Shown here piece after piece: positions 4,498 to 12,144 of a stretch of DNA of 12,144 nucleotides. A model generated the notes under the pieces. The model saw nothing but the letters and a program-made list of their open reading frames with translations. It ran no database searches and was not told the DNA's origin. The stretch is from assembly GCA_018894445.1 (NCBI GenBank), contig JAHIPJ010000226.1, positions 1 through 12,144 on the forward strand. The letters are read 5' to 3'. This stretch comes from Actinomycetota bacterium (GTDB lineage Bacteria; Actinomycetota; Humimicrobiia; Humimicrobiales; Humimicrobiaceae). Within the stretch, counting starts at the first letter, position 1, and each line of letters opens with the position of its first letter. A program made the translations under genes and the position numbers.

Positions 4498-6063
4498 ATG
4501 AAAGACAAGAAAAACGACGAGATTTCAAACTTAAGCAATAATAACAGTGAAGAGCTATTGACCGGAAAAAGTGAGTATTTGCTGGAGTCAGAAGAACCTC
4601 TAGCTGAATCATTAAAGATGAGACTTGAAAAAGTAAAGGCTCTCAAGAAAAGCGGTAAAAAGATTTACAAGAACAGGTTTGATAAAAATTCCGATATAAT
4701 AGACATAAAGACACATTACTCCAAACTTAAAGCCGGCGAAAAGGCTGATAGTGTTTTTAAAATAGCAGGGAGGCTTATTGGTTTCAGGAAACACGGCAAG
4801 GCAACCTTTAGCGATATAAAAGATTTTACAGATAAAATCCAATTATATGTCAATCAAAAAGATATTGGGGAAGAGAAGTATGATGAGTTTTTAAATCTGG
4901 ATATTGGTGACTGGGCAGGTATAGAAGGAAACGTTTTTGTGACACATGCAGGAGAACTTTCAATAAATGTTTCCAAATTTGAGCTTCTAAGTAAAGCCAT
5001 AAGAATACTTCCTGAAAAATGGCATGGACTGAAAGACAAGGAATTAAGATACCGTCAGAGATATTTAGATTTTACTGTAAATCCTGAGGTAAAAAATGTA
5101 TTCTTGACTAGAATTAAAATAATAAATGCTTTAAGAAAGTTTTTAAATGATAGCGGTTTTAAAGAAGTTGAAACACCAATGCTCCAGTCAATCCCGGGTG
5201 GTGCCATAGCAAAACCATTTATAACCCACCATAATGCTCTGGATATTGATCTTTACCTGAGGATTGCACCGGAATTATATTTGAAAAGACTGATTATTGG
5301 AGGATTTGAGAAGGTTTTTGAAGTAAATAGAAACTTCAGAAATGAAGGAATATCCTATAGGCATAATCCGGAATTTACAATGCTGGAATTTTATCAAGCT
5401 TATGCTGACTATAATGATATGATGGATTTGACAGAGAATCTGATAAAATTTGTTTCACAAGAATCTATCGGCAAATTAACTACAAGTTACAGGGGAAATA
5501 ATATCGATCTTGGTAGAGAGTGGGAAAGACTTACGATGCTGGAAGCCATTTATAAGTTTGGTGGAATTAAAATAAATTTTGATAACAGCACAGAAGAGTT
5601 ATTATCAGTGGCAAAAGATCTGGGTATTGAGATAGAAAAAGACTCCGGGAAGGGAAAAATTATAAATAAAATTTTTGAAGCCATAGCTGAGCCCAAGCTT
5701 GTACAACCCACTTTTATAAAAGATTATCCTATAGAAATATCCCCGCTGGCAAAAAGGCATCCGGAGAATGAAAACCTGACCGAAAGATTTGAGCTGTTTA
5801 TAGGAGGGGAAGAGATTGCAAATGCTTTTTCAGAGTTAATTGACCCCGGAGAACAATTGGATAGATTCAGGAATCAGGTAAGGAGCAAGTGCGAAGAAGA
5901 GAGGATTACAGGTAAGATTGATGTAGATTTTCTAAAAGCGCTGGAATATGGAATGCCGCCCACAGGTGGAGAAGGAATTGGGATTGACAGATTGGTTATG
6001 GTACTGACCAACAGCAATTCCATTAGAGATGTAATTCTTTTTCCTCTTTTAAGGCCTGAATAA
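4498..6063 (+). CDS. lysS: Lysyl-tRNA synthetase, class II
   Basis: LysS charges tRNA-Lys with lysine in the cytoplasm. The 521-residue product has the N-terminal helix (LAESLKMRLEKVKALKKSG), an OB-fold anticodon-binding domain (about 85-165), then the class II catalytic core: motif 1 around 207-235, GGAIAKPFITHHNALD, motif 2 with NRNFRNEGISYRHNPEF (277-293), and motif 3 ending IRDVILFPLLRPE at the C terminus. It is slightly longer than the usual 490-505 residues because of about 30 Asn/Ser/Glu-rich residues before the first helix. The ATG at 4498 has no clear ribosome-binding site. A TTG at 4558, with GAAGAG upstream, would remove 20 of these residues. An ATG at 4618 would cut into the conserved helix and is unlikely. 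No T-box leader is present; the gene probably shares the greA transcript. Confidence 0.95.
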   Translation: MKDKKNDEISNLSNNNSEELLTGKSEYLLESEEPLAESLKMRLEKVKALKKSGKKIYKNRFDKNSDIIDIKTHYSKLKAGEKADSVFKIAGRLIGFRKHGKATFSDIKDFTDKIQLYVNQKDIGEEKYDEFLNLDIGDWAGIEGNVFVTHAGELSINVSKFELLSKAIRILPEKWHGLKDKELRYRQRYLDFTVNPEVKNVFLTRIKIINALRKFLNDSGFKEVETPMLQSIPGGAIAKPFITHHNALDIDLYLRIAPELYLKRLIIGGFEKVFEVNRNFRNEGISYRHNPEFTMLEFYQAYADYNDMMDLTENLIKFVSQESIGKLTTSYRGNNIDLGREWERLTMLEAIYKFGGIKINFDNSTEELLSVAKDLGIEIEKDSGKGKIINKIFEAIAEPKLVQPTFIKDYPIEISPLAKRHPENENLTERFELFIGGEEIANAFSELIDPGEQLDRFRNQVRSKCEEERITGKIDVDFLKALEYGMPPTGGEGIGIDRLVMVLTNSNSIRDVILFPLLRPE

Positions 6064-6162: not shown

Positions 6163-6702
6163 ATGAATTGTGATTTTTGTTATAACAATGAAGCTACTAT
6201 TCATTTAATAAAGATTCAGGGCGCAAGCGTAGAAAGAATAAATATATGCAAGGAATGCGCAAAGGATTTTTCTTTTTTTAGTGAGGAAGATTTTTATAAT
6301 GATCTTGCCAGGATTCTTTATAAATTTTTCAATATTAGTACTAATGACTATCATACCGGCAGGGATAAAAAAATATTAAGGAGTATAAGTTATGGCAGGA
6401 ACAGAAAGTGTCCCTTTTGCGGTATAGATTTAAAAACCATTAAAAAAATTGGAAGGGTTGGCTGCAGCAGTTGCTACAGTGAATTTAAAGATGTACTATT
6501 TCCAATAATAAAATCTATTCAGGGAAGTCTTGAAAATAAGGGGAAAATTCCCGTAAATACCAGCAGGAAAATTAAACTGGAAAAAAATATAAGAGATCTA
6601 AGACATAGACTTAAAAATGAGGTAATAATTGAAAATTTCGAAGAAGCAGCAAGGACAAGAGACAAAATAAAAAAATTGGAGAAAAATAGATATGACCGGT
6701 AA
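6163..6702 (+). CDS. mcsA: McsA, zinc-finger and UVR-domain partner of McsB
   Basis: In Bacillota, McsA binds and activates the arginine kinase McsB and takes part in the Clp stress response. This 179-residue protein has the expected plan: CxxC pairs at Cys3/Cys6 and Cys29/Cys32, a linker, a second set at Cys83/Cys86 and Cys101/Cys104, and a C-terminal UVR domain (about 137-173, containing ENFEEAARTRDKIKKLE). All four metal-binding pairs are intact. The conserved HTGKxP before the UVR domain is ENKGKIP here. ATG 6163 has GGTGAT (6151-6156) seven bases upstream and places the first CxxC at residues 3-6, as is normal. The end overlaps mcsB by 11 bases. The usual upstream gene ctsR is absent; lysS is there instead. 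Confidence 0.9.
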   Translation: MNCDFCYNNEATIHLIKIQGASVERINICKECAKDFSFFSEEDFYNDLARILYKFFNISTNDYHTGRDKKILRSISYGRNRKCPFCGIDLKTIKKIGRVGCSSCYSEFKDVLFPIIKSIQGSLENKGKIPVNTSRKIKLEKNIRDLRHRLKNEVIIENFEEAARTRDKIKKLEKNRYDR

Positions 6703-7774
6703 AAATTTCTACCTGTTAGAAAATAAAACCAGCAAAAATAAGTCTGAAAGCAATAAAAATAAAATTATTTTAAATACCAGAGTCAGACTGGCAAGAAATC
6801 TTACCGACTACAAATTTACAAGTATCTGCAGCAATCAGGAAAAAAATATTTTACTAAAAAAAATAAAGAGATATGTTGAGGAAATAAAAGAACTTAGAGA
6901 TTTTAGGTTTTACTCTGTTAAAAGTCTTGGAAAAATACAAAAGGACCTGCTTTTTAAGGATTACCTGATCACTCCAGGAATGGCAAACAGGATGCAGGGC
7001 AAAGGACTGTTTGTAAAATATGGACAAGACCGGGGGGAATCTTCAGCAATAATGATTAATCAGGAGGATCATTTAAGAATTCAGAGTGTGCGTCCGGGTC
7101 TTAATATTTCAGAAGCTTACGAGGAGGTCATTGAAATTGAAAAATATTTTGAGAAGAAATTAAGTTTTGCTTTTGATAGAAATCTGGGGTATCTTACAGC
7201 AAGTCCGATTAACTTAGGAACTGCATTAAGGGTATCCGTCATTGCCCATCTTCCTGTACTGGCAGTAAGTACCAGGATTGCCGATTTTGTAAAAAAATTA
7301 AACCAGGTGGGATGTTTAATCAATGGATATTTTATGGGAAATTCTGAAGTAATTGGTAATTTATTTAAGATTTCTAATCTGGTAACACTGGGTAAAGGGG
7401 AAGAAGACATAGTTGAAGAAATGAAGGCAATTTGCTTAAATATAATCGATGATGAAGAGAACGCCAGAAAGAAATTAAAGGAGAGCGACCTGCTTGGAAT
7501 TAAAGATAACATATACCGTTCCTTTGGTTTGCTTAAGTATGCTAAAATACTATCATATGAAGAATCACTGGAACTGTTATCAATAATAAGATTGGGGCTT
7601 GATCTGGATATTATAAGCGGGGTTAATGATTTTGATTACTTTGAACTAATAAATAAGATCAGTGATTCACATATTATATTAGATTTAGAGATAAGTAGAA
7701 GTGTAACTGATGATGAACTAGATTCGATAAGGGCTGATTTAATACGGAAAAAAATATTAAAAGGAACTGATTAA
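6692..7774 (+). CDS. mcsB: McsB-family protein arginine kinase homologue with altered active site (possible pseudokinase)
   Basis: McsB phosphorylates arginines on proteins to target them to ClpC-ClpP. The 360-residue product matches the family from end to end: NTRVRLARN (28-36), NQEDHLRIQ (123-131), GYLTASPINLGT (166-177), NSEVIGNLF, ISNLVTLG, and RLGLDLDII late in the chain. Compared with B. subtilis McsB as I remember it, with a constant offset of four and no gaps through 171-223, Cys167 is Ser171, Arg207 is Asn211 and Glu212 is Gly216; Arg337 of the phospho-arginine sensor is Leu343. The first catalytic Glu (Glu125) and the Arg residues 30, 32, 129 and 180 expected to bind nucleotide are kept. 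The frame is open throughout, which argues against a decaying pseudogene. ATG 6692 overlaps mcsA; GGAG (6678-6681) lies ten bases upstream. Family is sure; kinase activity is doubtful. Confidence 0.9.
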   Translation: MTGKNFYLLENKTSKNKSESNKNKIILNTRVRLARNLTDYKFTSICSNQEKNILLKKIKRYVEEIKELRDFRFYSVKSLGKIQKDLLFKDYLITPGMANRMQGKGLFVKYGQDRGESSAIMINQEDHLRIQSVRPGLNISEAYEEVIEIEKYFEKKLSFAFDRNLGYLTASPINLGTALRVSVIAHLPVLAVSTRIADFVKKLNQVGCLINGYFMGNSEVIGNLFKISNLVTLGKGEEDIVEEMKAICLNIIDDEENARKKLKESDLLGIKDNIYRSFGLLKYAKILSYEESLELLSIIRLGLDLDIISGVNDFDYFELINKISDSHIILDLEISRSVTDDELDSIRADLIRKKILKGTD

Positions 7775-10240
7775 ATGTTTGAAAGATTCACAGAGAGAGC
7801 AAGAAAAGTAGTGGTCAGGGCTCAAGACGAGGCTAGATTTTTAAAACAGAACTATATAGGTACCGAGCATATTCTCCTTGGCTTAATTGACGAAAAGGAA
7901 GGAATTGCTGCCAGGGTTTTTTATGAATTGAATATTACTTTTGAAGATATCAGGTCGGCAGTAAAAGAAGTGGTTACTGAAGGGACTTCTGAATCTTATG
8001 AACATATTCCCTTTACTCCGAGAGCTAAGAAAGTTTTAGAATTATCTTTAAGGGAAGCTCTTCAAATGGGGCATAATTATATAGGGACAGAGCATATATT
8101 GCTGGGGCTCTTAAGAGAAGGGGAAGGAGTGGCAGCAAGAGTTTTAAATAGCATGGGAATCACTCTGGATAATGTAAAAGAAAAAGTAAAGGGACTTCTA
8201 AGTAAGCAGTCTTATTATTTAGAACAAGAAAGAGCCCTGTCCGATAAAAGTCAAAAAAAGGTGCTTAAGATGCTGGTACAGTATGGAAGGGATTTAACTT
8301 TACTGGCCCAGGAGGGCAAACTTGATCCTGTGATAGGGAGAAGGAAAGAAATTGACAGAATAATTCAAATACTTTCCAGAAGAACAAAGAATAATCCTGT
8401 CCTTATAGGAGAATCAGGAGTAGGAAAAACTGCAATTGTTGAAGGATTGGCGCAATTCATCTGTTCAAAAAAGGTTCCTTCAAATCTTTCCAAGAAAAAA
8501 ATATTTACCCTTGATCTGGGGGCTTTAATTGCTGGTTCAAGATATAGGGGAGATTTTGAGGAAAGGTTAAAGAAGGTGCTGGCTGAAATTAAGGATGATG
8601 GAGATATCATACTTTTTATTGATGAGGTTCATACTCTAGTGGGTGCCGGCGCTGCCGAAGGTGCTATCGATGCTGCAAGTATCTTGAAGCCTATGCTGTC
8701 AAGGGGGGAAATTCAAACTATAGGTGCTACAACTGTTAATGAATATCGTAAGTATTTTGAAAAGGATAAAGCTCTGGAAAGAAGATTCCAGCCAATTTTC
8801 ATAAATGAGCCTACCGTATATGAAACTATTGAAATTTTAAGAGGGCTTAAAGACAGATATGAATCTTTCCATGGCCTAAAGATAACTGAAGATGCTATAG
8901 TGTCAGCTGCAAAATTGTCCCACAGGTATATTAGTGACAGATTTCTGCCCGATAAAGCTATTGACCTGATAGATGAGGCAGCATCCAGGGCCAGGGTAAG
9001 AACTCTTACAACTCCTCCTGATTTGAAGGAACTGGAAGCAAATATTGAAAAAATCGCAAGTGAAAAGAAGAAGGCTATAGAATCACAGGATTTTGAGAAA
9101 GCAGCACAGATGCGTGATAAAGAGAAACAACTTATTAAGGAAAAGAGGGAAATAGAAGAGATTAAAATTAGAACCAAAAAAGCCGATAAGGAAGTTGTAG
9201 GTGAGAATGAGATAGCAGAGATATTATCCAGCTGGACCGGTGTCCCGGTATACAAGTTAACTTCAAGTGAATCTTCCAAACTGCTTGGAATGGAAGACGA
9301 GCTTCACAGAAGGGTTATTGGTCAGGATGAAGCTATAAAAACAGTGTCCAAAGCCATCAGGCGGTCCCGTTCCGGTTTAAAAGACCCGAAAAGACCAATC
9401 GGCTCTTTTATGTTTCTCGGACCTTCCGGTGTGGGAAAGACTGAACTTGCTAAAACAATAGCAGAATTCTTATTTGATAAAGAAGAAGCTTTAATACATA
9501 TTGATATGTCTGAGTATATGGAAAAGCATTCCGTATCGAAACTGGTCGGTTCCCCTCCCGGATATGTGGGCTATGATGAAGGCGGACAGCTGACTGAAAT
9601 GGTAAGAAGAAAACCATATAGTGTAATACTGCTGGATGAAATTGAAAAGGCGCATCCTGATGTTTTTAACATACTATTGCAAATTTTTGAGGAAGGACAC
9701 CTTACCGACTCTCAGGGTAAAAGAGTGGATTTCAAAAATACTGTGGTTGTAATGACTTCCAATCTGGGAGCGAGGGAAATACAAAAAAATACTCCAATGG
9801 GATTTAAAAAAATAAATACCGAAGATCTTTCCTATGACGAAATAAAAGAAAAAGTAATGAGTGAACTGAAGAAGGCTTTCAGACCTGAATTCTTGAACAG
9901 GGTTGATGAAGTAATAGTATTTCACAAATTACAAAAGCAGCAGGTTTACAATATTATGGATCTGATGATGTCCAGAGTACAGCAACAGCTTGAACTTCAG
10001 GGGATTACAATAGAGCTTAAAAAAAACGCAAAGGAATTGTTACTGGAGAAAGGCTACGACTCTTCAATGGGCGCCAGACCTATGAGAAGGTGCATACAAA
10101 ATCTGATAGAGAATCCTATTTCTGAAAAATTAATAAGCGGGGAGATAAGATCCGGGCAGAAGATCGAAGTAAGTGCCAAAGATAAGAAAATGCACTTTGA
10201 TATTAAGAAATTGAACCGGAGCAGTGTATTAAAAGTTTGA
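7775..10240 (+). CDS. clpC: ClpC, Hsp100 AAA+ unfoldase
   Basis: ClpC unfolds proteins and feeds them to ClpP. The 821-residue product has two Clp N repeats (about 1-70 and 78-142, each with GTEHILLGL), AAA domain 1 with Walker A GESGVGKT (212-219) and Walker B LFIDE (280-284), a middle domain with a UVR-like segment DFEKAAQMRDKEKQL (439-453), AAA domain 2 with Walker A GPSGVGKT (549-556) and Walker B LLDE (619-622), and FRPEFLNRVDE near 702. The middle domain and MGF loop (675-677), at the place of the VGF ClpP-docking loop, fit ClpC rather than ClpB. Glu31 and Glu106, equivalent to the phospho-arginine-binding Glu32 and Glu106 of B. subtilis ClpC, are kept. The ATG directly follows the mcsB stop; AAGGA (7761-7765) lies nine bases upstream. 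The neighbours point to McsA/McsB as adaptor partners. No clpP is in the window. Confidence 0.96.
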   Translation: MFERFTERARKVVVRAQDEARFLKQNYIGTEHILLGLIDEKEGIAARVFYELNITFEDIRSAVKEVVTEGTSESYEHIPFTPRAKKVLELSLREALQMGHNYIGTEHILLGLLREGEGVAARVLNSMGITLDNVKEKVKGLLSKQSYYLEQERALSDKSQKKVLKMLVQYGRDLTLLAQEGKLDPVIGRRKEIDRIIQILSRRTKNNPVLIGESGVGKTAIVEGLAQFICSKKVPSNLSKKKIFTLDLGALIAGSRYRGDFEERLKKVLAEIKDDGDIILFIDEVHTLVGAGAAEGAIDAASILKPMLSRGEIQTIGATTVNEYRKYFEKDKALERRFQPIFINEPTVYETIEILRGLKDRYESFHGLKITEDAIVSAAKLSHRYISDRFLPDKAIDLIDEAASRARVRTLTTPPDLKELEANIEKIASEKKKAIESQDFEKAAQMRDKEKQLIKEKREIEEIKIRTKKADKEVVGENEIAEILSSWTGVPVYKLTSSESSKLLGMEDELHRRVIGQDEAIKTVSKAIRRSRSGLKDPKRPIGSFMFLGPSGVGKTELAKTIAEFLFDKEEALIHIDMSEYMEKHSVSKLVGSPPGYVGYDEGGQLTEMVRRKPYSVILLDEIEKAHPDVFNILLQIFEEGHLTDSQGKRVDFKNTVVVMTSNLGAREIQKNTPMGFKKINTEDLSYDEIKEKVMSELKKAFRPEFLNRVDEVIVFHKLQKQQVYNIMDLMMSRVQQQLELQGITIELKKNAKELLLEKGYDSSMGARPMRRCIQNLIENPISEKLISGEIRSGQKIEVSAKDKKMHFDIKKLNRSSVLKV

Positions 10241-10253
10241 TTTTACAGGACGA

Positions 10254-11363
10254 ATGAATAAAAAAAGTGAAGAATTATTACTAGATTGCTTGAAAAAAAT
10301 AGCTCCTGGAACGGAGCTCAGGCTGGGAATAGAATATATACTTCAGGGGAAAACAGGCGGACTGATTGTTGTGGGAGATTCGGAAGAGGTATTGAAGCTG
10401 GTTAATGGAGGATTTTATATAGGTTGCAGTTTCTCGCCAGCAAAATTCTATGAGATTGCCAAAATGGATGGAGCTATTATATTGAGTTCTGACGGTAAAC
10501 GGATCTTATATGCCAACACTCACCTTTTCCCCAATCCAGACATTAAAACTTCTGAAACAGGTACAAGACATAGAACTGCAGAAAGAGTAGCAAAACAAAC
10601 CAATACCCTGGTAATTTCTATTTCTATGAAAAGGGATGTGGTTACCATATATAAAGGTGATATGAGGCATATGCTTGAGGAACCAAGGGTAGTTCTATCC
10701 AAAGCAAATCAGGCATTACAAGCGCTTGAAAAATACAAAGAAGGGCTGAATGAACTTACATTTAATTTAACCGCGAGAGAACTCGAAGATCTGGCAACAC
10801 TTTTTGATGTAACCAGTGTACTTCAAAGATCAAGCATCGTACAGAGAACCGAAAAGGAAGTTAAAAAATATATATATGAGCTGGGGGTAGAAGGCAGGCT
10901 CTTAAACATGCAGGTTGAAGAATTAATGGCGAATATAGTGAATGATTCCTTGAATATTATAAGTGATTATGTGCATGCGGATATCAGTGCCGAACCATTT
11001 GAATTGAAGGATAGAATAAATCTATTAAGCGAGGAGGAGCTTATCGAGCTGGCCAATATTGCAAAAATTTTAGGTTATGATGTTGAAGGCAGCTTAAAGG
11101 AATTTGACATACATCCCAGAGGACTCAGGATTGTTTCAGAAGTTAGAAGACTTCCTAAATCAATTGTTACCAATTTAATTGGTAAGTTTGGTAATTTAAA
11201 AAATATTCTAAATGCAAATGTGGAGGAATTGTCTGAAGTTGCAGGAATGGGAAAAACCAGCGCCAGCTCTTTATGCGACAAGCTAAAAAAGTTTTCTGAA
11301 TATTATTTATATAATGAACCGTATAATAGAAAAGGAGGAGTAATCCCAAGAATTAAAATATAG
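10254..11363 (+). CDS. disA: DisA, DNA-integrity scanning diadenylate cyclase
   Basis: DisA makes cyclic di-AMP from two ATP and senses branched DNA as an octamer. The 369-residue product (about 357-360 is usual) has the N-terminal DAC domain with the two catalytic motifs DGA (72-74) and RHR (105-107, in GTRHRTAER), a helical linker, and a C-terminal helix-hairpin-helix DNA-binding domain (about 300-350, IGKFGNLKNIL followed by VAGMGKTSASSL). All key motifs are intact, so it should be active. ATG 10254 has AGGA (10247-10250) only three bases upstream, a short spacing. clpC ends 13 bases before it, so it is probably on the same transcript. The usual neighbour radA, whose product modulates DisA in Bacillus, is absent between clpC and disA. 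Confidence 0.95.
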   Translation: MNKKSEELLLDCLKKIAPGTELRLGIEYILQGKTGGLIVVGDSEEVLKLVNGGFYIGCSFSPAKFYEIAKMDGAIILSSDGKRILYANTHLFPNPDIKTSETGTRHRTAERVAKQTNTLVISISMKRDVVTIYKGDMRHMLEEPRVVLSKANQALQALEKYKEGLNELTFNLTARELEDLATLFDVTSVLQRSSIVQRTEKEVKKYIYELGVEGRLLNMQVEELMANIVNDSLNIISDYVHADISAEPFELKDRINLLSEEELIELANIAKILGYDVEGSLKEFDIHPRGLRIVSEVRRLPKSIVTNLIGKFGNLKNILNANVEELSEVAGMGKTSASSLCDKLKKFSEYYLYNEPYNRKGGVIPRIKI

Positions 11364-11447: not shown

Positions 11448-12144
11448 ATGAATGTAGCGATAATTACAGCAGCCGGAAAGGGTATCAGGCTAAAAGGCAA
11501 TATCAGCAAGCAGTTTATGAACATTTATGGAAAACCAATATTAGCTCATACTATTACTGCTTTTCAAAGATCTTCAAAAATAAAAGAAATATATGTTTCA
11601 GTTCCTAAAGATTATCTGGAATCATGTCAAAAAAGTATAATTGAAAAATATTCATTCGATAAAGTAAAAAAATTAGTTATTGGCGGCAGCAGCAGACAGG
11701 AATCTGTTTATAATGCTCTAATTGAGCTACCTTCCTCCACTAAATTAGTGTCTATTCATGATGGTGTAAGACCACTTATTACCGCGGAAGAGATTGATCT
11801 TTTAATTAATACTTTAATAATGGAAAATAGAAAAGAACCTGGAGTGAAAGGTGTAATAATGGCAGAATCTGCGCGGGAAACTGTAAAAGTAATCGGTAAA
11901 GGTACTGTTGATAGGACTATCCCCAGAGATACAGTCTGGCATGCCCAAACTCCACAGACTTTCTTTTACAAAAATATTTTAGAAGCTCATAATAAAGCCA
12001 GAGAGGATAATTTTATAGGCACAGACGATGCTTCGCTAATGGAAAGAATGAATTGGAAGGTTGGTGTGGTAAGAGGCAGGCATGAGAACATAAAAATTAC
12101 AACCCCACTTGACTTATTTCTGGCAGAGCTTATTATGACCAGAA
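11448..12144 (+). CDS. ispD: IspD, MEP cytidylyltransferase (3' partial)
   Basis: IspD joins CTP to 2-C-methyl-D-erythritol 4-phosphate in the MEP isoprenoid pathway. The 232 visible residues contain the nucleotidyltransferase start AAGKGIR (8-14) with Lys21 in KQF, GGSSRQESVYNAL (79-91), HDGVRPL (104-110), the AQTPQTF segment (166-172), TDDASLME (192-199) and NIKITTPLDL (214-223) with the conserved Lys216. These cover the family's usual 225-235 residues, so only a few C-terminal codons should be missing, unless it continues into a fused IspF domain. The usual DT(I/V)K motif reads ETVK (144-147), a conservative Asp-to-Glu change. The start is ATG 11448, with only a weak GTGAT (11435-11439) as ribosome-binding site. 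It follows disA by 84 bases, the same order as in many Bacillota. Confidence 0.93.
   Translation, partial: MNVAIITAAGKGIRLKGNISKQFMNIYGKPILAHTITAFQRSSKIKEIYVSVPKDYLESCQKSIIEKYSFDKVKKLVIGGSSRQESVYNALIELPSSTKLVSIHDGVRPLITAEEIDLLINTLIMENRKEPGVKGVIMAESARETVKVIGKGTVDRTIPRDTVWHAQTPQTFFYKNILEAHNKAREDNFIGTDDASLMERMNWKVGVVRGRHENIKITTPLDLFLAELIMTR

Follow-up and report, generated by a model that had tools for sequence, protein, structure and literature searches.

The window analysed here, a stretch of DNA of 12,144 nucleotides, is contig C209 of a draft genome of 1.24 Mb (completeness 92%, contamination 2.5%) affiliated with Candidatus Hydromicrobium (Actinomycetota, Humimicrobiia). The genes on the contig follow the order lysS-mcsA-mcsB-clpC-disA, and those considered below are as follows:

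4498..6063, forward strand: lysS, the gene upstream of mcsA, in an order (lysS-mcsA-mcsB-clpC) that is conserved
6163..6702, forward strand: mcsA, encoding the activator/partner of McsB, with four CxxC pairs intact and a UVR-like motif at the C-terminus
6692..7774, forward strand: mcsB, a predicted pseudo-arginine-kinase of 360 aa with an intact open reading frame
7775..10240, forward strand: clpC, whose start codon abuts the mcsB stop and whose N-domain has both GTEH motifs intact

The mcsA and mcsB genes overlap by 11 nt. With model NF053706, the window McsA scores 122 bits (E 1.9e-35) and falls short of the curated threshold of 210, and its UVR match (20.1 bits) is likewise below the cut-off of 21.5. 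In B. subtilis, radA lies between clpC and disA; in the window, disA comes directly after clpC (10240-10254), with radA missing at that place. A further frame, starting at 11448 and running off the contig, is presumably ispD. A ClpP gene was found in the window genome, and McsB proteins 97-99% identical to that of the window occur in Ca. Hydromicrobium americanum and in two further Actinomycetota drafts.

The active site of the window McsB

McsB normally marks damaged proteins by phosphorylating their arginine residues. Positions in the window protein were mapped by alignment with McsB of Geobacillus and Bacillus, whose structures are known. The original prediction, made from the DNA alone, had placed Ser171, Asn211, and Gly216 at the positions of Cys167, Arg207, and Glu212, and this was borne out: the motifs align without gaps (LTASPINLGT in the window against LTSCPTNVGT, and INGYFMGNSE against VRGTYGEGSE), and the codons read accordingly. 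The replacements are:

7202..7204, forward strand: Ser171 (codon AGT) replacing the catalytic Cys167, by alignment and codon reading
7322..7324, forward strand: Asn211 (codon AAT) replacing Arg207 of the VRG motif, by alignment and codon reading
7337..7339, forward strand: Gly216 (codon GGA) replacing Glu212, the second acidic residue, by alignment and codon reading
7718..7720, forward strand: Leu343 replacing Arg337 of the RDxxRA phosphoarginine pocket, from the alignment rows

The pocket reads LDSIRA in the window protein, so that the equivalents of Asp338 and Arg341 are kept and Arg337 is lost. Like Leu343, one more replacement had at first been missed: in the NEEDH motif, Gln124 takes the place of the initial Glu. 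The residues predicted to persist are all in place in the alignment: Arg30, Arg32, Glu125, Arg129, and Arg180 correspond to Arg29, Arg31, Glu121, Arg125, and Arg176. A sequencing error at the replaced codons, a caveat attached to the prediction, is excluded because Ser/Asn/Gly is common to all five readable genomes of the genus (G000, G002, G003, G004, and G006), and it recurs in database relatives.

According to the accessible text of PMC7235348, B. subtilis McsB is inactivated by any one of the substitutions R207K, C167S, and R337K, with R207K alone abolishing the activity in vitro; the R337A/D338A mutant is reported to have destabilised multimers (accessible text of PMC8370763). With positions 167 and 207 both changed here, together with Glu212, the proposed pseudo-kinase status gains support, and arginine kinase activity has very likely been lost from the window McsB, as far as sequence can tell.

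The protein retains PF00217 catalytic-domain homology and a full-length McsB fold, has lost catalytic residues, and evolves under purifying selection (see below), a combination characteristic of pseudokinases. Its score against NF053707 (287.9 bits) does not reach the equivalog cut-off of 500 bits, and it reaches the cut-off of none of the five NCBIfam models that it matches; NF053707 was passed by none of the 396 Actinomycetota genomes sampled. A second McsB did not appear, as the window genome, at 92% completeness, gave no other PF00217 gene, a search in which the B. subtilis control also returned no PF00217 match. None of the 14 control genomes, B. subtilis among them, matched PF00217 or NF053707; B. 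subtilis does possess PF00217, NF053707, and CtsR genes.

The Ser/Thr kinase fold is unrelated to that of McsB. Bacterial pseudokinases of the Ser/Thr fold are likewise kept, catalytically impaired kinases, and in the accessible text of the review on them (PMC12599244) McsB appears in the reference list only and not in the main text. From Firmicutes McsB (B. subtilis, G. stearothermophilus, S. aureus) the window protein differs at Cys167, Arg207, Glu212, and Arg337, and no CtsR was found in the window genome, in a search with a weak control. The laboratory C167S mutant of B. subtilis carries the identical Cys-to-Ser change and is described as kinase-inactive with residual adaptor function, since it keeps part of the McsB effect on MgsR turnover; a kinase-independent adaptor role was inferred by the authors (accessible text of PMC7235348). 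The change in the window, in contrast, is natural, inherited, and combined with the loss of Arg207, Glu212, and Arg337. In the open-licence papers searched, whose coverage is incomplete and missed at least one relevant paper, no report of a naturally inactive McsB was found.

Repeated loss of active-site residues among relatives

The comparison drew on the best 120 of 4489 homologues and on eight tabulated positions (window numbering: Arg30, Arg32, Glu125, Arg129, Cys171, Arg180, Arg211, and Glu216). Among 40 whole genomes of the class, an McsB match was obtained in 30, that is, in 30 of 35 from the window's family and in 0 of 5 outside it. Position 171 is readable in 29 mcsB genes of the family: 22 lack the Cys, which is replaced by Ser, Asn, or Asp; three keep it but have lost other active-site residues (G011, G016, and G025); and four have all eight residues (G009, G013, G017, and G023), so selection presumably continues to maintain kinase activity somewhere. 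Within the genus, Arg30, Arg32, Arg129, and Arg180 are kept in four of the five readable genomes, the fifth, G002, having Lys at 180 only.

The full-length degenerate mcsB genes that were read have open frames. An apparent stop inside the G020 gene proved to be the normal terminal stop, and a supposed loss of mcsB in G005 was rejected as a contig break, the contig beginning inside the last 22 nt of the gene. G033 has only an mcsB fragment at a contig end, G010 has two fragments on two contigs, and no McsB match was found in G012, G028, and G034.

An even draw of 396 Actinomycetota genomes yielded an McsB match in 56. All 26 McsB outside the window's family were read, and 16 of them keep the Cys while ten do not; in all ten of these non-Cys loci mcsB is flanked by mcsA and clpC. 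None of the 55 readable rows from Actinomycetota has the Arg337 of the phosphoarginine pocket, compared with 42 of 46 rows that have it in the outgroup; as it is gone even from catalytically intact proteins, McsB may be regulated differently in this phylum.

Two kinds of loci outside the window's family deserve mention in their own right. L144, L145, and L146 (G079, G267, and G209), as well as L143 (G043), have lost most active-site residues and still lie between mcsA and clpC. In L128 and L129 (G091 and G239), only the Cys is changed, to Ser, and the seven other positions are intact; McsB of this type possibly represents an early stage or has residual activity.

Redundancy filtering left 101 rows for a family tree, 64 of them degenerate and 37 intact, and the columns of the eight active-site positions were masked together with five adjacent ones. 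This tree contains seven changes of state (6-7 under bootstrap), four of which are forced by well-supported branches alone; an earlier tree of 90 rows had four changes. Holding all degenerate rows in one clade, as a single origin would require, was rejected (p-AU 0.0004). For the phylum sample, a quick 81-row tree gave 11 Cys/non-Cys changes, nine of them forced by starred branches (SH-aLRT only, with some long branches). The changes were counted without direction; since the outgroup has intact McsB, they are taken as losses. Read in this way from the alignments, active-site residues are shown to have been lost several times independently among the relatives.

One well-supported clade of 24 rows has Ser at position 171 throughout. 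Its existence, an omega of 0.09, and the finding of no second PF00217 gene in the 92% complete genome support calling this McsB conserved, as had been proposed. The related idea that Ser/Asn/Gly might define a clade held in part: a Ser clade does exist, but it is one of several independent losses and not a single clade of all such proteins. Its members vary at other active-site positions, and some of them have lost Arg30, Arg32, or Arg129.

Retained constraint and the partners of McsB

The location of decay was assessed with 22 intact and 62 degenerate sequences left by a 90% identity filter and with 28 outgroup sequences left by an 80% filter. Of the 63 positions conserved in intact McsB, 48 lie in the kinase domain, where 21 show decay in degenerate proteins, and 15 in the C-terminal domain, where none does (Fisher p 0.001). 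The decayed sites include all eight active-site positions, but this count involves some circularity, since the same sites served to define the degenerate group; the test was therefore redone with Cys alone as the label. The other active-site positions had then decayed in 7 of 7 cases, compared with 28 of the 68 further positions that are conserved in the outgroup (p 0.003). Among relatives that keep the Cys (Humimicrobiia), none of the seven had decayed and 20 of the 68 others had changed. With the outgroup as the only reference, 3 of 13 C-terminal-domain positions are changed in Cys-keeping and Cys-lacking rows alike, and such shared changes indicate that part of the drift is lineage-wide. 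The ratio of kinase-domain to C-terminal-domain tree length is 1.57 for one set of dead proteins (42 sequences) and 1.26 for another (11), compared with 0.81 in intact relatives (24) and 0.90 in the outgroup (28). The features retained in the window are:

7442..7762, forward strand: C-terminal (dimerisation) domain, residues 251-357, with constraint retained (0/15 sites decayed, lower omega)
7517..7519, forward strand: Arg276, equivalent to the dimer-interface Arg273 of Geobacillus McsB, invariably Arg in the readable rows of all groups
7562..7564, forward strand: Glu291, equivalent to the dimer-interface Glu288 of Geobacillus McsB, invariably Glu in the readable rows of all groups

A salt-bridge pair and a cation-pi pair are named for the Geobacillus dimer interface in the accessible text of PMC12387690; the former is kept in all readable rows, and the latter is variable both between and within groups. 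The codon model gave genus omegas of 0.091 for mcsB, 0.130 for mcsA, 0.047 for clpC (partial, 499 codons), and 0.083 for lysS (partial, 289 codons, 4 genomes). Omega of the C-terminal domain, which ranges from 0.014 to 0.086, is lower than that of the kinase domain in four of four degenerate sets, two of which overlap (0.054 vs 0.102 for the genus), the values of the more distant sets being rough because their trees are long. The site and codon comparisons thus show constraint relaxed at the active site and not in the dimerisation domain.

The partners were followed through 30 mcsB loci, 29 from the window's family plus G042, several of these stretches stopping at contig ends. On the same stretch as mcsB, mcsA is found in 26, clpC in 29, and lysS in 23. 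All eight zinc-finger cysteines of McsA are present in 29 of 30 aligned loci, and the remaining one is truncated. Both GTEH motifs of the ClpC N-domain are kept in all 26 rows that reach them, so the change in McsB has left no trace in ClpC.

CtsR was found in none of 61 genomes; this absence is weak because the B. subtilis control gave no match, L. lactis alone matching among the 14 controls. The phosphatase family LMWPc gave 27 matches in 19 of 35 family genomes and none in the window genome. In the 13 of these matches that were read as loci, Ser occupies, without exception, the position that is Thr in YwlE, in a motif that we take to resemble arsenate reductase. By this Thr rule, drawn from the accessible text of PMC8001253, no YwlE-type phosphatase occurs among the 13 of 27 family loci read, which does not prove its absence.

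A possible role without arginine phosphorylation

The locus probably encodes a pseudo-arginine-kinase that has been retained as a dimer bound to McsA and whose action on ClpC involves no phosphoarginine. The window McsB would fold and pair like McsB while no longer phosphorylating arginine, and the McsA-bound dimer would hold or deliver substrates to ClpC, or restrain ClpC, via protein contacts alone; we infer such an adaptor role for the window protein. A dimer acting by contact fits because the C-terminal domain, McsA, the gene order, and the tight gene overlap are all kept. A likely order of events would begin with the early loss in Actinomycetota of Arg337 from the phosphoarginine pocket, followed by repeated loss of the active site where neither CtsR nor, at the loci read, a YwlE-type phosphatase is found, and then by joint deletion of mcsA and mcsB in some lineages.

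Such deletion is visible in G001, a member of the same genus, where clpC follows lysS and mcsA and most of mcsB are gone. The spacer there contains 118 nt that match, at 90%, the end of lysS and the spacer between lysS and mcsA in the window, followed by a 40-nt mcsB remnant and then by the last part of mcsB, from 7751, with the start of clpC. In window coordinates, the remnant corresponds to:

7513..7552, forward strand: mcsB stretch surviving between lysS and clpC in G001 (40 nt matching at 95% by blastn, E 1e-13)

In another family of the class (f3), lysS adjoins clpC and no mcsA or mcsB was found in four of four genomes (G037, G036, G039, and G038, at L099-L102), a state that may be either ancestral absence or loss. 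The pair is thus not essential in G001 or in these four genomes, and this dispensability counts against the adaptor reading, as does the statement, in the accessible text of the review PMC5506225, that the ClpC adaptor activity of B. subtilis McsB depends on its kinase activity. The unchanged GTEH motifs of ClpC, the partly lineage-wide drift, and the four intact members among 29 in the family tell further against it.

The main rival is slow decay towards deletion, in which the kinase became useless (e.g., after CtsR was gone) and mcsA-mcsB are drifting to loss with no present function. It would account for the repeated loss of active-site residues, for the remnant in G001, and for McsA and McsB diverging faster than ClpC. 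A drifting gene is, however, difficult to reconcile with a genus mcsB omega of 0.09, near the 0.083 of lysS, with open frames in the full-length degenerate genes read, and with the low omega of the C-terminal domain and the kept zinc fingers of McsA. As a general account it is rather unlikely, and it may be true of some lineages.

It is improbable that McsB serves as a nucleotide switch, still binding ATP and controlling McsA or ClpC without phosphoryl transfer. Nucleotide binding had been named as possible in the original prediction and accords with the four Arg residues kept in the window and in most of the genus; yet Arg207 is lost, and the loss of Arg30, Arg32, or Arg129 in other Ser-clade members means that ATP binding is not a shared trait. 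Altered chemistry, with Ser working for Cys and other groups standing in for Arg207 and Glu212, is very improbable: the protein retains Glu125 along with four Arg of the active site, Cys to Ser is the only change in some relatives from outside the family (G091, G239), and Cys mutants of arginine kinase are reportedly 'partially active' (so the title of Gattis 2004), but R207K alone is enough to abolish B. subtilis McsB in vitro, Asn211 and Gly216 are uncharged, and other active-site positions vary among members of the same clade.

Within the McsA-McsB-ClpC complex, McsB may have a function that is old and does not depend on phosphorylation, strong enough that many Actinomycetota lineages would have dropped the chemistry and kept the scaffold, giving rise repeatedly to pseudokinases of the phosphagen fold; this broader proposal is tentative, with the chances slightly against it. 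Whether McsB acts as a kinase only or as an adaptor too is unsettled in B. subtilis, the accessible texts of PMC7235348 and PMC5506225 leaning in opposite ways, and natural pseudo-McsB with intact sisters in one family separate the kinase from the adaptor role. The presence of mcsB in a genome is unsafe evidence of arginine phosphorylation, several of these proteins (for example P0003, P0014, and P0017) being labelled 'protein arginine kinase' in the source database.
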